From Brevundimonas vitisensis (lineage in GTDB: Bacteria > Pseudomonadota > Alphaproteobacteria > Caulobacterales > Caulobacteraceae), in the NCBI RefSeq assembly GCF_016656965.1, contig NZ_CP067977.1:806001-870000 (forward strand): DNA of 64,000 nt. Direction: 5' to 3'. Numbering within the stretch: the first letter of the stretch is position 1; every line of letters starts with the position of its first letter. Positions 50,942 through 57,756 of the stretch are shown piece after piece. The notes beneath the pieces were generated by a model. That model was given only the letters and a program-made list of their open reading frames with translations, was not told the origin of the DNA and searched no databases. The position numbers and the translations under genes are program-made.

Positions 50942-51017
<76 letters not shown>

Positions 51018-51081
51018 TCGTCCACCTAACCCCTTGAAATCACAAGAAGGCGCTGAACCGAAACGCCTTTTCGCAACAAAC

Positions 51082-51103
51082 CTTGTACAAAACTTGTGCA
51101 AAA
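51082..51103 (+). repeat. Tandem 11-bp repeat before the integrase gene
   Basis: CTTGTACAAAA (51082-51092) and CTTGTGCAAAA (51093-51103) are adjacent copies differing by one base. They lie 65 bases after the tRNA and 19 bases before the integrase ATG. They could be integrase arm-type sites or an operator. Confidence 0.6.
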
Positions 51104-51121
51104 TGTGCGAGGGTTTTGGCC

Positions 51122-52915
51122 ATGTCCAGCGCCTCTTTTAGAGCCAAGCGAAACGGGGTTTCGGCGCCGAAGAACGGCCTGACCCGCAATGTCCGGCTCA
51201 TCGTTCCGGCCGACGTCCAGACCATCGCCCTCGGCCTTCCCGAGACGGATGCGCGACTCGCCCTGCTCGTCCACGAGGACGGCCGGCCCAAGGGCGCCCT
51301 GATCAAGACCACGCGCCGTCGCAACGCCGAGGAGGCCGACGGCATAGGCGAGGCCCTGAGGCGCGAGTGGAAGGCCGTCTTCGCCAGCCTGCGGGCGGAG
51401 CATAAGCCCGGCGGCGTCTCTCAGGCGCGCGAGCGCATCGACGCCTGGAGGACCGAAGAGGTCGCCACGGCCCTCGGTTTCGACGTCGAGATCAGCTTGC
51501 TGGAATACAAGGCCCGCGCCGAAGCCCTGGCGTCGCCGGCCGCGGGCGTCGAGCATGGCGGCCTCGTCTGGGCCGAGCGCTATTTCGGGGAACGGCCCGA
51601 GGCCTCGCGCGGCCCGGCCATGCCACCAGAGACCTTCATGCTTCTGGATCGTCTCCAGGTTATCGAGACCAGTCCCGAGGCCTGGCGCGACATCGACGGC
51701 TTCGACACGGTGCTGAACGCCGTCCTCGGAGCGCGCTGGGCGGCGACCACGCGCACGATCGTCAGACCGTATTTCGCCAAGGCCTGGATGGAGGTGGTCC
51801 GGGCCCAAGAGCAGGAGCGCCGCTACGCCGCAACTCTCCTCGAACTGGCGCATCGCCCCGACATCGTCGTGCCCCGACACCCGACCCATGTGCCGCGGCC
51901 GGGCGACAAGAGGCTTGACGAGCTCCTGGCCGCCTATCTGGCGGCCAAGGGCGAGAACAAGGACTATCGCGCGCCCATGCGGGCCCTGAAAGAGTTCTTC
52001 GGCGAGAAGAAGCCCATCCGCGCCATCGGCCGCCAGGATGCTCGGGCTTTCCTCGCCTTCATCCAGACGGTGCCGTCCAACGCGACCAAGAAGTTCCCCG
52101 GCAAGACCCTAGCCGAAGCCGCCGAGGCCCGCATCAAAACGGGCGACCCGGCCGTCTCGGTCACGACCGTGCGCACCTACATGAACCACGTCTCCATGAT
52201 CTGGAACTGGGCGCTCGCCGAGAACGAAGCCTGGCTCGACAAGAACCCCTTCGAGGGACTGATGCCCCAAGCCGCGCCCAAGGTGCAGCGCGAGGGCTTC
52301 ACCGACGAAGAGCTCATCAAGCTGTTCGCGGCGCTGGCCCCGCACAAAGCCGAGGATCATTCGCTCTTCTGGGTGACGGCGCTGAGCCTGAACGGCGCGC
52401 GGATCTCCGAGCTTCTCCAGCTGCGCACCCATGAGGTGCGCGAGCACGACGGCGTCCACTTCCTCGACTTCGGCGAGTTCGACGATCAGGGCCTGAGGAT
52501 CGGTCAGGCCCAGTACAAGAACCAGCGCAGCATCCGCCCGGCGCCCATCCATCCTCTCGTGATCGAGGCCGGCTTCCTCAACCTCGTCGAGCGTCGCAAG
52601 GCCGCCGGCGAGGCCCAGCTGTTCCCCAAGGTGAAGCCCCGCGTCGTCGGCCAGAAGGTGGACTGGTCCCACTATCACTCAAAGCGGATCAACAAGATCA
52701 TCGACGATCACGTCTCCGACGCGCCCAAGCTGGTGGCTCACTCCTTCCGCCACATGCTGCGCGAGCGGGCCCTAGACCTCGACATCTCCCCGGAGATCAT
52801 CGACGCCATCGGCGGCTGGGCGCCCAAGACCGTCGCCGCCAAATACGGCGTCAAGCGCATCGGCATGCTCCACCGCAACCTGGCGCGGATAAAGTTCGGG
52901 GCGCTGAAGCTCTAG
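51122..52915 (+). CDS. Tyrosine recombinase (site-specific integrase)
   Basis: The product inserts and excises the element at tRNA-Lys. From the ATG at 51122 (GAGGG upstream) it has 597 residues. The N-terminal part may bind arm sites (LTRNVRLIVPADVQTIALGL). A SAM-like core-binding domain lies around 270-370, and the catalytic domain around 400-597. Catalytic residues are visible: Arg in NGARISELLQLRTHEVREHD, Lys in AQYKNQRSIR, His-x-x-Arg in VAHSFRHMLRERALDLDI, and Tyr in VAAKYGVKRIGMLHRNL. An upstream TTG at 51083 would place the start inside the 11-bp repeats and is less likely. Confidence 0.93.
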   Translation: MSSASFRAKRNGVSAPKNGLTRNVRLIVPADVQTIALGLPETDARLALLVHEDGRPKGALIKTTRRRNAEEADGIGEALRREWKAVFASLRAEHKPGGVSQARERIDAWRTEEVATALGFDVEISLLEYKARAEALASPAAGVEHGGLVWAERYFGERPEASRGPAMPPETFMLLDRLQVIETSPEAWRDIDGFDTVLNAVLGARWAATTRTIVRPYFAKAWMEVVRAQEQERRYAATLLELAHRPDIVVPRHPTHVPRPGDKRLDELLAAYLAAKGENKDYRAPMRALKEFFGEKKPIRAIGRQDARAFLAFIQTVPSNATKKFPGKTLAEAAEARIKTGDPAVSVTTVRTYMNHVSMIWNWALAENEAWLDKNPFEGLMPQAAPKVQREGFTDEELIKLFAALAPHKAEDHSLFWVTALSLNGARISELLQLRTHEVREHDGVHFLDFGEFDDQGLRIGQAQYKNQRSIRPAPIHPLVIEAGFLNLVERRKAAGEAQLFPKVKPRVVGQKVDWSHYHSKRINKIIDDHVSDAPKLVAHSFRHMLRERALDLDISPEIIDAIGGWAPKTVAAKYGVKRIGMLHRNLARIKFGALKL

Positions 52916-53533: not shown

Positions 53534-54298
53534 TTGGCACGCCTTCCCACGCTCATCGACGCCCTCGCCCGATATGATCGCCGCGGCCGACCCACCATAG
53601 CCCACATCGCCCGCCAGGTGCGAGACGCGGGACTGATCGTGTCGTCCAAGCGCGGGGTGGGGGCTGCGGTCATGACCGAGAGGGACGCTGCGACCCTTCT
53701 TCTCGCCGTCTGTGGCGACAGCAGTCCGCAAGGCGCCGTCGCCGCGGTCCACAACCTGCGTTCCCTAGTGCCCGATCCTAATGACACCCTGCGCGACACG
53801 CAGCGCGAGGAAATGCCCGAGTGGATGGAGTTCTTACGGGAGAAAATCAGCTTCGCCGACGCAGTGGAAAGGCTGATCGCCAATGCACCTCTGATCGCTC
53901 AATGGCACGAAACGTACATGGAGGAGTGGGAGGAGGAAGCTCAAGGCGTCTCTGAGGCCGAGTTCTCGATGCAATGGATGGTCGTCAAATCCAACGCCGC
54001 CGGTGGGGCCTTCAGGCCTGGATATGCTCGTGCGCTTCGCATCGTGAGTTACGTCCCAGGGCTCGCCGCTGAAATCCACCTAGGTCGTCCATGGAAGCGG
54101 CTGGAGGAGATCGAAGCTTTCCATGAGCATTATGCGCCTGCCGACGCCTGGGTCGGGGCCGTGAGCGACGATGGCGCACGGAAGTCCAACTCCTCCGGCG
54201 AAACGGACTGCCTCATCACGATTGAAATCGGCCTACCGACTCTCACAGCCCTGCACGCAGCCGTGAATGACATGCCTATAGCCGCGCCGACTTCATAA
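53534..54298 (+). CDS. Unrecognised protein with N-terminal helix-turn-helix-like region
   Basis: The 254-residue product begins MARLPTLIDALARYDRRGRP, then TIAHIARQVRDAGLIVSSKR and GVGAAVMTERDAATLLLAVC. This resembles a winged-helix or helix-turn-helix module of a type I have seen in alphaproteobacterial phage and island proteins. The remainder (about 90-254) is mixed alpha/beta with an acidic helix (ETYMEEWEEEAQGVSEAEFS) and no known motif. A regulator or DNA-binding accessory role is a guess. AGGAG lies shortly before the ATG. Confidence 0.6.
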   Translation: MARLPTLIDALARYDRRGRPTIAHIARQVRDAGLIVSSKRGVGAAVMTERDAATLLLAVCGDSSPQGAVAAVHNLRSLVPDPNDTLRDTQREEMPEWMEFLREKISFADAVERLIANAPLIAQWHETYMEEWEEEAQGVSEAEFSMQWMVVKSNAAGGAFRPGYARALRIVSYVPGLAAEIHLGRPWKRLEEIEAFHEHYAPADAWVGAVSDDGARKSNSSGETDCLITIEIGLPTLTALHAAVNDMPIAAPTS

Positions 54299-54363: not shown

Positions 54364-54627
54364 ATGCCCCTTGCCTCTCCCGTTTCCACCACTTGCGTTG
54401 GGGCGGACGATCCGCCTGCCTTCGATCCTCAGCCCATTCGCGGTGACGCCTCGTTGGGTCGCCTGCTCAGCCGGCGGCGCGAACTTGATGATCAGCGGCA
54501 TAAAGGAAGGCGTCTCGACGCCGACGACGCCCGGCTTCTGCCCCTGATGCTGTCGTTGGCGCGGATCAGCGCGCGGGCCTCTGTTCGGGACCAACCGTGT
54601 GTCGGCTGTTCGGGAGGCGCTCAATGA
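54364..54627 (+). CDS. Small protein leading the recombinase operon
   Basis: The 87-residue product has GGAG seven bases before its ATG. The N-terminus is Pro-rich. A charged region LGRLLSRRRELDDQRHKGRR then LDADDARLLPLMLSLARISA is probably helical, and the end has a CVGCSGG pair of cysteines. I recognise no family. Its stop overlaps the next start (ATGA), so it is coupled to the recombinase-like genes and may be an accessory or directionality factor. The alternative ATG at 54348 opens only a 32-codon frame in another phase. Confidence 0.45.
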   Translation: MPLASPVSTTCVGADDPPAFDPQPIRGDASLGRLLSRRRELDDQRHKGRRLDADDARLLPLMLSLARISARASVRDQPCVGCSGGAQ

Positions 54628-55262
54628 TGCCCCGCGGACGCACCGCCTCCCAGGCCGCTCCGACCACGGCCGAACGTCTCTCGGCTTGCAGCCGCTACGC
54701 TGGCCAAGCCGGGCTTCGCGTCGTCACTGTCCTCGACGACCAATACGCCGACGCCAGCTCGCGGGCTGGACAAGGGCTTAATCAGCTTGTCGAGCGTCTC
54801 TCGATCGGCGAGTTCGAAATCGTTGTCGCCTGCGCCGAGAATGGCCGGCTGGTGACCCTGCAGGCCGCAGGGAACGAGGCTTCGCAGCACACGCTCGAAT
54901 CTCTGCGCTGTGCGATCTATGCGCGTTCCGCCTGCGTGAACCAGGCCGAGCCTGACAGCGTCGCTGACCAGGTGAGCAGCTGCGAGGCCTTCGCCGAAAG
55001 CCAGGGCTGGGAGACGGCCATGATCTGCCGGGATTCGGGTGTCAGCGGCCTGTCGGGATCTCGCCCCGGCTTGGACCGCCTGATGGCTCAGGCCCGTGCG
55101 GGCGCCTACGATGTGTTGCTGGTCGAAGATCTCGACCGGCTGGCCCGGCGCGTCCCGCTCCTCCACGAGCTGGCGACGGAACTGGAGGCGCTGGGTGTCG
55201 TCCTTCACACCACGGCGGGTCCGTTTGACCGCGGCTTCATCCGCCGGGGTATCAACTCTTGA
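54624..55262 (+). CDS. Recombinase-like protein with two degenerate resolvase domains
   Basis: The 212-residue product, with RBS GGGAGG, contains two copies of the serine-recombinase N-terminal fold. The first (about 15-78) keeps only RLSACSRYAGQAGLRVVTVL and the GLNQLVERLSIGEFEIVVAC strand. It lacks the catalytic start and the D-R pair. The second (about 95-205) is almost complete, with CRDSGVSGLSGSRPGLDRL and LLVEDLDRLARR. Its nucleophile motif is Y99-A-R101-S-A103, where the canonical pattern is Y-x-R-x-S, so the serine position is Ala. No DNA-binding recombinase domain follows. It is probably non-catalytic, possibly a partner of the full-length enzyme two genes on. Confidence 0.75.
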   Translation: MMPRGRTASQAAPTTAERLSACSRYAGQAGLRVVTVLDDQYADASSRAGQGLNQLVERLSIGEFEIVVACAENGRLVTLQAAGNEASQHTLESLRCAIYARSACVNQAEPDSVADQVSSCEAFAESQGWETAMICRDSGVSGLSGSRPGLDRLMAQARAGAYDVLLVEDLDRLARRVPLLHELATELEALGVVLHTTAGPFDRGFIRRGINS

Positions 55263-55627
55263 CCGCCGCCGTTCCGGCGGACGCCCGCTACGCCATTTAT
55301 GTGCGGCAACAGGCGGTAAAGTCCCTCCAAGGCCAAATCATCCTGTGTCGCACCTATGGGGATCAGCAAGGCTGGGCTGAAGCTGGCGCCTACCAGGACT
55401 ACCAGCGCAGCGGGTCGGTTGTCATCGGACGCTCCGGCCTCTTCGAAATGCTCGGCGCTGCCGCCCGGAGAGAGTTCTCCATTCTCGTGATTAGCGACTT
55501 GAGCCAACTTGGTTGTAGCGCCGCGGACCTCCCCGGCTTTCTGATGGAGTTGAAGTACGACGGCGTCAGTGTCCATACGCCGGCCGGCGCGGCTCCGGCC
55601 GAGAGCGCTCTTCGGAGGGCCTGCTGA
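55259..55627 (+). CDS. Truncated, catalytically degenerate resolvase-domain protein
   Basis: The 122-residue product starts at a TTG overlapping the previous stop (TTGA). It is a lone resolvase N-terminal domain and aligns almost without gaps to the start of the next protein. RYAIYVRQQAVKSLQGQIIL has Gln at position 18, where the next protein has its catalytic Ser18. ISDLSQLGCSA replaces the conserved EDLDRLSRS, losing the catalytic Arg. The end overlaps the next ATG (TGATG). It therefore cannot cut DNA by the known mechanism; a structural or regulatory role, or decay, are the alternatives. Confidence 0.75.
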   Translation: MTAAVPADARYAIYVRQQAVKSLQGQIILCRTYGDQQGWAEAGAYQDYQRSGSVVIGRSGLFEMLGAAARREFSILVISDLSQLGCSAADLPGFLMELKYDGVSVHTPAGAAPAESALRRAC

Positions 55628-57756
55628 TGAACGCCTTCCCGCCGCCGGGCTCGCTCTATGCCGTCTACGCCCGCTATTCGACCGACCATCAGACCTTTAA
55701 GTCCATCGAGGACCAGCTCACCCTGTGTCGGGCCTACGCCGAGCGGCACGGATGGGTGGAGGCGGGCGCCTACCACGATGCCGCCCGTAGCGGCGCTACC
55801 ATGGTCGGCCGGGCAGGACTTTTCGACATGCTGGCCGCGGCTGACCGTCAAGAGTTCTCCATCATCCTGATCGAGGACCTTGACCGCCTCAGTCGAAGCG
55901 CGTCCGGCGCCCATGGCATGGTCGAGGAGATGGAGGCCCTCGACATCACCGTCTGCACGGTTTCGTCCGGCCCGGTGACGGACATGGAGGTGGCATTCAA
56001 GGCTGCTCATAACGCCCGCCAGCTCAAAGCCCAGGCGGAAAAGACCCGGCGGGGCCAAGAGGGCACGGTTAAGGACGGTCGCATCTCCGGCCAAGTCGCC
56101 TACGGCTACCGCAGAGTGGTGTCGCTGGATGGCAAAAACGGTCTGCGTGAAATCGATCCGGATCAGGCCAAAATCGTCGTTCGCATCTTCAACGACTACC
56201 TGTCCGGCATGACGCCGCTCGACATCGCCAAGGCGCTGAACGCCGAGGGTATCCCTGGCCCTCGCGGCGGCCGTTGGAAGCCTGGAGCGATCTACGGAAA
56301 TAGAGACACCGGCGTCGGCATCCTCCGCAACCGGCTCTACGTCGGGATCAATGAGTGGGGCCGTACGGTCACCAAGCACAACCGTCACAAGGGGACGTCC
56401 ATCGCCAAGGTCACGGCGAAGGCCGACCGCCTGGTCATCGAAGTGCCTCACCTGCGCATCCTCGACGACGAGGTGTTCCAAGCCGTCCAGGACCGGCTGG
56501 AGGCCCGTCGCTCCAACCCCTCGACCTTTCGCGACAAGCGCCGTCCCGATTATCTGCTGTCCGGCTTGGTGCGCTGTGGTGTCTGCGGCCGCCCTTACTC
56601 GGTGGTCTCCGACAAGCTGAGCTGCATTGGCTCGGCCCGCGAAGGCACCTGCGACAATCGCCGGCGCGTGGCTCGCGAGGATCTGGAGGCGATCGTCCTG
56701 ATGGGCCTGAAGGAGCGCTTGCTGCGCCCCTCCCTGATCGAACCCTATCTGGAAGCGCACCGGGTCGAGCTGGACAGGCTGAACGCCGCTCAGGCTGCGC
56801 AGTCCGAGGCCGCCCAGGCGCGCGTCAAGGAACTGACACGCCAGATCGACAACGTGATGGCCCAAGTCCTCGCGGGCCGAGCGGCGGGCCCTGCCGCCGA
56901 TGTCGCAACGCGCCTGTTCTACCAAGAGGTCGCGCGGCTGGAGACCGAACGCCAAGCGGCCGAGCGCCAAGTCCGCGCACAACTTCGCCCCGTGCCGCCG
57001 CCCATGGACGCCGAGACCGTGGTGAAACGCCTCAACGTGCTGCTGGACGACCTGCGCCTGGCGCTGGACGGAAAGGATCGCGACGCTCAAAGCGCTCGCG
57101 ACCAGTTGCGGGCCCTGATCGACAAGGTGACGATCACGCCCATCGAAGCCGCCCGCCCGGATAAGCGCGGCTGCGGCCCAGTCAGGGTCACGGTCGAGGG
57201 GCCCCTTACCGCACTGGTGGATCTCGCCGATCCAAATCGCGTCATCCAGCATTCTTCACGTCCGGGAACGATACTGGACCTCGCGATCCTGACCTTCAGC
57301 TACTACGTTGATTATATTCCGGAAGATAACCGGCTTGACGAGCAGACGTACGTCGATCTGGCTACCATCGCCCGGCTGCTGGACGATTCCGACATTCCGG
57401 TCACCCGTCGCATGATCGTCGATGCCCTCGCCGCTGCCGACGGGCGCGACCCGGGTTGCCCGCCGGATTATGAGCCCGGCAGCCCCCACGTCGCCCGCGC
57501 CCTGAATGCGACACGCTATCTCGCCAAAGCCGGTGACATTCGCGCGGTCCGCTTCGACCCTGCCCGTAGCGGATGGGTGTGGAACCATATCGACCGATCG
57601 GATGAGGCCTGGATCCAGCGAGCAATGATGGCGCCTGTTCCGGCGATGCACCTGCCTATTCCTGTGATCCGCCTTAGCGCTCCGGAAGCCGCCGTCGTCA
57701 TCATTGGCCCGCGCCAGTCCGACGGCGCGGCGCTGCCGACGATGGGGCCGATCTGA
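55627..57756 (+). CDS. Large serine recombinase (complete)
   Basis: Large serine recombinases integrate, excise or rearrange DNA through a Ser-DNA intermediate. The 709-residue product has Y14-A-R16-Y-S18-T with the nucleophile Ser18 and IEDLDRLSR at about 82-90. The recombinase domain lies around 155-290 (GQVAYGYRRV, NAEGIPGPRGGRWKPGAIYG, LRNRLYVGINEW). A zinc ribbon has Cys317, Cys320, Cys333 and Cys342, and a coiled coil lies at about 375-440. The last 200 residues are an extra C-terminal region of unknown role. It is convergent with the restriction operon. Confidence 0.92.
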   Translation: MNAFPPPGSLYAVYARYSTDHQTFKSIEDQLTLCRAYAERHGWVEAGAYHDAARSGATMVGRAGLFDMLAAADRQEFSIILIEDLDRLSRSASGAHGMVEEMEALDITVCTVSSGPVTDMEVAFKAAHNARQLKAQAEKTRRGQEGTVKDGRISGQVAYGYRRVVSLDGKNGLREIDPDQAKIVVRIFNDYLSGMTPLDIAKALNAEGIPGPRGGRWKPGAIYGNRDTGVGILRNRLYVGINEWGRTVTKHNRHKGTSIAKVTAKADRLVIEVPHLRILDDEVFQAVQDRLEARRSNPSTFRDKRRPDYLLSGLVRCGVCGRPYSVVSDKLSCIGSAREGTCDNRRRVAREDLEAIVLMGLKERLLRPSLIEPYLEAHRVELDRLNAAQAAQSEAAQARVKELTRQIDNVMAQVLAGRAAGPAADVATRLFYQEVARLETERQAAERQVRAQLRPVPPPMDAETVVKRLNVLLDDLRLALDGKDRDAQSARDQLRALIDKVTITPIEAARPDKRGCGPVRVTVEGPLTALVDLADPNRVIQHSSRPGTILDLAILTFSYYVDYIPEDNRLDEQTYVDLATIARLLDDSDIPVTRRMIVDALAAADGRDPGCPPDYEPGSPHVARALNATRYLAKAGDIRAVRFDPARSGWVWNHIDRSDEAWIQRAMMAPVPAMHLPIPVIRLSAPEAAVVIIGPRQSDGAALPTMGPI

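Follow-up and report, generated by a model that had tools for sequence, protein, structure and literature searches.

Why should a complete large serine recombinase (LSR) follow a row of catalytically defective relatives? This question was raised by an array at 54364..57756 of the window, the 64,000-nucleotide stretch of Brevundimonas vitisensis DNA analyzed here (contig NZ_CP067977.1, positions 806,001 to 870,000, forward strand). A half resolvase domain, a domain with Ala for Ser, a domain with Gln at that position, and an intact 709-aa LSR follow one another. The 700-aa LSR subfamily is called LSR-700 below, and active-site residue numbers follow gamma-delta resolvase. The features of the array are as follows:

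54364..54627, plus strand: 87-aa helical ORF with the motif LLPLxLxLARLxAR, first gene of the array
54624..55262, plus strand: half-plus-dead protein, 212 aa (221 aa if read from the GTG at 54597)
54672..54866, plus strand: domain 1, a half resolvase domain
54906..55220, plus strand: domain 2, a dead resolvase domain with Ala for Ser and with Arg8, Arg68, and Arg71 kept
55259..55627, plus strand: domain 3, the 122-aa dead domain, with Gln at the Ser position and Arg68 and Arg71 lost
55627..57756, plus strand: 709-aa LSR with the complete catalytic set
55660..56082, plus strand: active catalytic domain of the LSR (PF00239)
56158..56703, plus strand: recombinase domain (PF07508) and zinc ribbon (PF13408) of the LSR
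57154..57753, plus strand: C-terminal extension of the LSR, typical of the 700-aa subfamily, with no Pfam family over the cut-off

The preliminary description of this locus had four resolvase-type N-terminal domains in tandem over three genes, and the frames and junctions (ATGA at 54624-54627, TTGA at 55259-55262, and TGATG at 55625-55629) match it. The 87-aa ORF lies within the same region and was not discussed there; it is a conserved member of the array. PF00239 matched the 221-aa frame (4.4e-24), the 122-aa protein (2.3e-10), and the LSR (1.3e-19). Among the four domains, the full set of catalytic residues (Ser, Arg8, Asp67, Arg68, and Arg71) was present only in that of the LSR, as had been claimed, and the LSR also carries both PF07508 and PF13408. 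At array-type loci, 26 junctions were measured, and in 20 of them the two genes share 1 or 4 bases; locus L076 has two further 4-base overlaps beyond that count. These overlaps suggest that the genes of the array are co-transcribed. Matches to Pfam, profiles, and structures, together with the selection seen, ruled out chance ORFs.

Domain 1, said to lack the catalytic start, equals a half domain. A profile of domain 1 and its relatives aligned with active resolvases over residues 1-73 (hhalign probability 95.7%, E 1e-8), ending just short of D-R-L-S-R, so that this motif and the serine are both missing. Modelling with AlphaFold was not improved by adding more family members, and the apparent kinship of domain 1 to resolvases rests on profiles. 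Domain 2 reads Y-A-R-S-A, as reported, with D-R-L-A-R as its second motif. Its resolvase-like catalytic fold is indicated by PF00239 and by Foldseek (3bvp_A, E 5.5e-9), and its model gave a TM of 0.78, by target length, against the catalytic domain of TP901-1 integrase.

The half-plus-dead family comprises 23 protein clusters with pairwise identities down to 43%; read from the ATG at 54624, the window's protein has the same length, 212 aa, as that of cluster P0001. Ala replaces the nucleophilic Ser in all 23 clusters, and Tyr6, Gln19, and Asp36 are also present in all 23. Arg8, Arg45, Arg68, and Arg71 are each kept in 22 of 23, and Asp67 in just 14. A serine consistently missing from homologues, which the preliminary description had named as a result that would support its reading, was found, with the remaining active-site residues mostly retained. 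In serine recombinases, the long helix E carries the dimer contact. This helix is absent from both dead proteins of the window, and a tail of at least 30 residues stands at its position in 19 of the 23 clusters. The dead proteins have no DNA-binding domain. A viral origin was rejected: neither the dead family nor the LSR had a relative in two scans of viral contigs, and no place in the phage and plasmid collections covered 80% of the half-plus-dead protein.

The half-plus-dead protein is under purifying selection, in line with the proposal to examine its dN/dS. Over three genomes, omega was 0.176 for the dead protein, 0.175 for the half domain, and 0.171 for the full domain, with 2dlnL values of 101.7, 36.2, and 61.5, respectively; when the three-genome case was simulated 60 times under neutrality, no 2dlnL exceeded 10.7. 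The LSR catalytic domain has an omega of 0.02, about eightfold lower than the 0.18 of the dead protein. By a simple Nei-Gojobori count the departure from neutrality is less marked, with 0.46-0.56 for the dead protein vs 0.07-0.31 for the LSR domain. Single-branch tests (W_dead3 11.6, L078_dead 5.5, and L091_dead 7.6) fell near or within the range of the neutral simulations. Neutral copies of six tested sequences stayed open in 25-52% of simulations (0.2 draws per site), so an open frame by itself says little here.

The 122-aa protein gave a different picture. The description of domain 3, with Gln at the Ser position and D-R-L-S-R lost, was borne out: the protein reads Y-V-R-Q-Q and S-Q-L-G-C, with Gln and Cys at Arg68 and Arg71. 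Conservation of its gene across elements was not seen, as it was found in one protein cluster only and its closest relatives are LSRs of its own clade. The 122-aa protein is a diverged local duplicate of an LSR N-terminus.

How widely the array is shared was examined at 16 LSR-700 loci. Relatives of the helical ORF precede the LSR at all 16, the half domain was found at 10, and the full dead domain at 7; the gene order fixed across elements that the preliminary description had envisaged thus did not hold. A full dead domain before the LSR was seen at 7/16 LSR-700 loci vs 1/31 loci of shorter LSRs (p 0.001, with loci treated as independent). Only the helical ORF and the LSR are present at L081, L083, L084, and L085, of which L084 and L085 are near-identical. 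A dead protein in genome G029 (L092_216) has no intact LSR-700 adjoining, and this locus was excluded from the 16-locus counts. At a related locus, G179, the half and dead ORFs are kept and the LSR is reduced to a C-terminal piece. At L078 (support 96/92) and, before a shorter LSR, at L091 (support 99/99), separate duplications lie beside the LSR from which they derive and likewise carry Ala for Ser. Dead domains have arisen more than once before LSRs, mainly those of LSR-700. LSR pieces also occur: at L076 a 193-aa piece sits between the dead gene and the LSR, with a C-terminal remnant of an L078-type LSR directly behind the LSR (95% DNA identity), and N-terminal pieces of 83 aa and 72 aa are present at L077 and L078, respectively. 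A candidate small-plus-large pair in G003 (L090) is actually a frameshifted LSR and was excluded from the partners.

The helical ORF has an omega of 0.06. Searches of Pfam, NCBIfam, PADLOC, and PHROGs gave no match to it at the E-values applied, and no solved sequence matched it either; a role as directionality factor is therefore only a guess. In a sample of 372 genomes of the class, it was found in no other genome save for two weak matches inside long frames. A similar class sample had no full-length LSR-700 beyond that of the window, so this absence says little on whether the ORF is independent of the LSR.

Outside the array, the following neighbors were noted:

51083..52915, plus strand: 610-aa tyrosine recombinase adjoining tRNA-Lys (Phage_integrase 21.6 bits, under the Pfam cut-off of 27.1)
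53534..54298, plus strand: 254-aa protein, family not assigned, also before the array at L077, L078, L083, and L088
57769..62792, minus strand: type III restriction-modification pair (res, mod), likely cargo

The genome holds no second copy of the tRNA-Lys end of the island, even with 2 mismatches allowed, and a search for att sites found none.

The best reading, to which we give a probability of about 0.5, is that the dead proteins are co-translated pseudo-subunits that would bind to the catalytic domains of the LSR and hold synapsis back or shape it. A translationally coupled operon would supply a small helical protein, one or two dead serine-recombinase proteins, and the active LSR, with the ratio of dead to active chains set by the gene overlaps. 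The dead proteins would join LSR subunits through catalytic-domain surfaces, and could then keep the LSR from productive synapsis or tune its direction. We infer such a role in synapsis geometry or direction from sequence. The dead family of Brevundimonas lacks just the cutting residue and is maintained by selection, and so points to partners that do not cut, not to debris. Against this reading stand the missing helix E of the window's two dead proteins, the higher omega of the dead protein relative to the LSR catalytic domain, its weaker signal in the Nei-Gojobori count, the 9/16 LSR-700 loci with no full dead domain, and the half and dead ORFs of G179, which have no intact LSR beside them.

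Debris is what the strongest alternative proposes: LSR modules would re-enter the same spot, and the dead domains would be leftovers whose GC-rich frames seldom meet stops. The abundant LSR pieces at L076, L077, and L078, the frameshifted LSR of L090, and the lone C-terminal piece in G179 are what such accretion and decay would leave, and neutral copies often stay open. An omega of 0.17-0.18 over three genomes, the unvarying Ala among mostly retained catalytic residues, and the recurrent 1- or 4-base overlaps argue against it, and we consider it unlikely as a general account. It nevertheless stays a serious rival, most of all for the 122-aa gene, with its single cluster and lost Arg68 and Arg71. 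The earlier view that simple decay is not the cause is supported for the half-plus-dead protein.

A recombinase in which the helical protein and the dead subunit or subunits are needed in every reaction, like the gin genes of GInt islands, would explain the GInt-like operon layout, in which the genes are coupled, one recombinase relative is inactive, and a helical protein is encoded at 16/16 LSR-700 loci. The full dead domain is absent from 9 of these loci, however, and the half domain from 6; the four loci with only the helical ORF and the LSR show that dead subunits are not needed by every member. We regard an obligatory role as rather improbable, and a restraining or tuning role fits better because 9/16 loci lack a full dead domain. 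That the dead proteins act elsewhere, as operon autoregulators, as immunity factors that block LSR elements on entry, or with the neighboring integrase in place of this LSR, is still less probable: at 12/16 loci another integrase, either a tyrosine recombinase or a further LSR, is encoded within ~4.5 kb (one more is broken) and MerR-like or 254-aa proteins lie upstream at some, but the dead genes overlap the LSR gene rather than the other integrase, and several dead domains have the adjoining LSR as nearest relative.

LSRs are now employed for inserting genes into genomes, and how their synapsis and direction are controlled is a key issue for such enzymes. If pseudo-subunits dock on the LSR as proposed, selected natural nucleophile knock-outs would be a new type of control, a built-in partner derived from the enzyme, and serine recombinases would converge on a multi-subunit layout known from tyrosine recombinases. 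Tentatively, these LSRs might act as hetero-oligomers with dedicated pseudo-subunits, the latter produced by repeated local catalytic-domain duplication and nucleophile loss and held at an overlap-set ratio; the operons would then be a serine-recombinase counterpart to those of GInt and SE, the strand-biased circularizing integrative elements.

Among known systems, the 709-aa protein shares its catalytic, recombinase, and zinc-ribbon domains with LSRs and phage serine integrases (TP901-1, phiC31, and SPbeta YokA), but differs from these three in its ~200 extra C-terminal residues and in the dead relatives in its operon. The Ser-to-Ala change in the dead domains is of the same sort as that in the S12A mutants of phiC31 integrase structures, going by the titles of the Foldseek matches. 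To our knowledge, the accessory proteins of serine integrases are unrelated to the integrase itself. No inactive serine-recombinase partner was found among titles and abstract openings in open-licence PubMed Central. The CcrA, CcrB, and CcrC cassette recombinases also have serine recombinase genes side by side, but both proteins of a Ccr pair are complete enzymes. Matches to CcrB in NCBIfam were weak (40 bits for domain 2 and 59.9 bits for the LSR, against a CcrB cut-off of 900), and the best, 59.9 bits, places neither protein in CcrA, CcrB, or CcrC, whose equivalog cut-offs are 700-900 bits.

The closest likenesses are with tyrosine recombinase systems; since the array encodes serine recombinases, only the way of working is compared. 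In the GInt islands (Bardaji et al. 2017, PMC5385486), all four genes, ginABCD, are reported to be essential, even though the catalytic set of GinC is incomplete. The gene set of GInts is fixed, whereas that of the array varies. The SE operon, intA-tfp-intB-srap, likewise has overlapping genes and, between the active recombinases, a relative without the RHRY motif, Tfp; a tfp knock-out was reportedly unobtainable, and the need for Tfp is less directly shown than that for GinC (PMC10214605). SE differ from the array in having tyrosine recombinases and two active enzymes, and were described from Gammaproteobacteria. What the array shares with both is an inactive recombinase relative in the same operon, its own co-transcription being suggested by the gene overlaps.

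Four overlapping genes on the + strand occupy 54364-57756 of the window:

54364-54627, + strand, helical ORF, 87 aa
54624-55262, + strand, half-plus-dead protein, 212 aa (221 aa from the GTG at 54597)
55259-55627, + strand, 122-aa protein
55627-57756, + strand, large serine recombinase (LSR), 709 aa

The gene coordinates bear out the stop/start overlaps (ATGA, TTGA and TGATG) given in the preliminary description, and its domain assignments hold as well. Within the 212-aa protein, a half resolvase domain is followed by a full-length one that reads Y-A-R-S-A. In the 122-aa protein the motifs read Y-V-R-Q-Q and S-Q-L-G-C, with Gln at the serine position and D-R-L-S-R gone, and among the array proteins the complete catalytic set is found solely in the LSR. 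Domains lacking catalytic residues are called dead here. Cluster P0001 (54 contigs) matches the dead protein of the window at all but 2 of 212 positions, and P0107 (56 contigs) matches the 122-aa protein except for the start residue.

An LSR matching that of the window nearly to its end was found at at least 16 loci in 390 family genomes (LSR-700 loci); two best candidates per genome were scored, so more loci are possible. One of these LSRs (G003) is frameshifted. Regions around these loci and a few others were fetched for context comparison. The proposed gene order was conserved only in part: the helical ORF lies ahead of the LSR in all 16 loci (E ≤8.4e-12), whereas the half domain does so in 10 and a full dead domain in 7 (window, L076, L077, L078, L087, L088 and L089). 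Both profiles were seeded from these same loci; matches outside the seeds were L076, L077, L078, L084, L085 and L090 for the helical ORF and L078 (2.2e-5), L082 and L090 for the half domain. Because L084 and L085 are near-identical, the loci do not count as fully independent. The comparison set was 31 shorter-LSR loci, the best other matches of the LSR searches. Neither the half domain nor the helical ORF was detected there at E 1e-5 in the ~1.5 kb upstream of each (no upstream sequence for L097), and one locus, L062, which is the same genomic place as L091, has a dead domain (Y-T-R-S-A). The serine is gone from 8/9 full upstream domains in LSR-700 loci; that of L087 keeps Ser and has lost Arg8. 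Ser, Arg8, Arg68 and Arg71 are kept in 16/16 aligned LSR catalytic domains (15 LSR-700 loci, with L085 left out, plus L091). Overlaps of 1 or 4 bases were seen at 20 of the 26 measured array junctions, a count that omits junctions with an unresolved start. In L076, a 193-aa LSR piece (PF07508, without the catalytic domain) lies between dead protein and LSR, with a 4-base overlap with each.

A single-sequence search with the 212-aa protein gave five clear homologues beyond its own cluster, one labelled Brevundimonas. In a profile search (7,994 candidates scored), 23 clusters stood at E ≤4.1e-68 among the best 120 of 847 matches, followed by two half-domain-only proteins (1.5e-31 and 4.5e-26) and, from ~1e-25, other recombinases. 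The serine is Ala in 23/23 clusters, and Tyr6 (23), Arg8 (22), Gln19 (23), Asp36 (23), Arg45 (22), Arg68 (22), Arg71 (22) and Asp67 (14) are kept, residues being numbered as in gamma-delta resolvase. Judged by sequence, the half-plus-dead protein is a family and no accident. Helix E is the dimerising helix of serine recombinases, and the C-terminal tail is long enough for part of it in 19/23 clusters. P0007 (285 aa), outside the family, has two tandem resolvase-like domains, neither with a clear Y-x-R-x-S.

By profile comparison, the half domain matched active resolvases over residues 1-73 with 95.7% probability, and we take it to be a serine-recombinase domain ending before the D-R-L-S-R motif. 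Its 10-row profile, run against 388 family genomes with 14 candidates scored per genome, returned the ten seed loci, a new locus in G179 (8e-12) and 18 weaker matches, six of them LSR catalytic N-termini: the best two (8e-7, G217) and those in G120, G139, G383 and G007. AlphaFold gave the half domain block-mean pLDDT mostly of 50-74, and lower in a second model. Domain 2, the full dead domain, received a good model, which matches the catalytic domain of TP901-1 integrase.

In a tree of 42 domains (119 columns, serine column included), the dead domains of L078 and L091 were each sister to the LSR of their own locus (support 96/92 and 99/99), and the 122-aa protein grouped with three LSRs, those of L076, L077 and the window itself, on a branch that is not starred (91/82). 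The relatives of domain 2 were placed apart, their own grouping being weak (63/93). The best tree holds eight state changes, and the starred branches alone require three; several branches are long and of unsure placement. Dead partners therefore arose more than once, and L078, L091 and the domain 2 family all underwent the same Ser-to-Ala change, with Arg8, Arg68 and Arg71 kept.

Selection was estimated with a codon model written for this analysis (F3x4, fixed trees), the dead protein being compared over the window, L076 and L077. The proposed purifying selection was recovered for the half-plus-dead protein (omega 0.176; 2dlnL against omega 1, 101.7) and for its two domains (0.175 and 0.171; 36.2 and 61.5). 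The helical ORF gave 0.06 (37.2) and the LSR catalytic domain 0.021 (171.2). In 60 neutral simulations of the dead protein over the three genomes, omega averaged 1.02 (least 0.56) and 2dlnL was ≤10.7. Since neutral simulations reach that value, the single-branch tests are weak for the 122-aa protein (11.6) as for the dead domains of L078 (5.5) and L091 (7.6). Nei-Gojobori dN/dS, a count that ignores codon bias, was lower for the LSR domain (0.07-0.31) than for the dead protein (0.46-0.56), and synonymous changes are close to saturation in these comparisons. The intact frames, previously advanced against decay, are indeed open, yet in such GC-rich DNA an open frame is by itself weak evidence.

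Without a DNA-binding domain, the dead chains could not occupy an att half-site alone. Most likely, they would pair with LSR catalytic domains and restrain or tune synapsis, and the overlap of the genes would set the ratio of dead to LSR chains. Alternatively, the dead domains may be leftovers of earlier LSR copies, left by accretion and decay. The 122-aa protein falls in a single cluster (in a search reaching solely relatives with common 5-residue words), best matches LSR N-termini outside its own gene in a genus search, retains fewer catalytic residues and may be degenerating. In G179 (19 kb fetched), half and dead ORFs remain while the LSR is down to a C-terminal piece, and the rate of evolution is far higher in the dead protein than in the LSR. 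These points keep accretion and decay alive, though we consider it improbable. That the full dead domain is obligatory for recombination is less likely, because 9/16 LSR-700 loci are without one. The helical protein, present in 16/16, would fit an obligatory role better and may be an accessory or directionality factor. It had no match to known families and, in a 372-genome class sample, was found in no other genome save for two weak matches inside long frames.

Some ~3.2 kb, from MerR gene to LSR end, is common to L080, L082 and L090 at 78-79% identity, and the match ends at gene ends. The L076 LSR is followed directly by DNA that shares 95% identity with L078 and contains the tail end of an older LSR; modules therefore displace one another or stack up. 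A divergent MerR-type regulator gene (~205 aa; PF13411 match in L080) precedes the helical-half-LSR operon in L079, L080, L082, L086 and L090, ~0.5-1.2 kb upstream of the LSR. Twelve of the 16 LSR-700 loci have a further recombinase, a tyrosine integrase or a second LSR, no more than ~4.5 kb away (window, L077, L078, L079, L080, L081, L083, L084, L085, L086, L087 and L088), and L090 has a broken one. Eight of the twelve were put through Pfam, the window and L085 integrases scoring below its cut-off, and the other four were assigned by homology or eye. With such neighbours, the LSR may be a second recombinase of islands. In L077 and L078 (G073 and G076), two different LSRs (589 aa and ~700 aa) are near neighbours next to a gene for an rlmD-like RNA methyltransferase (identified by eye); a 254-aa protein, the helical ORF and the dead array lie between the two LSRs. 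Among the cargo in the window is a type III restriction system. Almost the same tyrosine integrase beside tRNA-Lys (window 50942-52915) is found in G114 (L086), followed by another LSR-700 module; a small gene follows the integrase in the window and the LSR in L086. Given the shared integrase, swapped module and moved gene, the tRNA-Lys site appears to be a hot spot at which modules are exchanged. Elsewhere in the window's genome, two equal-score resolvase genes lie 20 kb apart (G000:C1:2448173-2448607, -; 2468254-2468688, +), an opposed pair that could flank an invertible or composite segment.

In open-licence PubMed Central literature, searched by title and abstract opening, no serine-recombinase counterpart with an inactive partner was found. 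Among tyrosine-recombinase operons, the strand-biased circularizing integrative elements (SEs) carry intA-tfp-intB-srap with gene overlaps, Tfp is without the catalytic motif, and a tfp knock-out was unobtainable (PMC10214605). The window array is like the SEs in its overlapping genes and its inactive recombinase relative, there Tfp.
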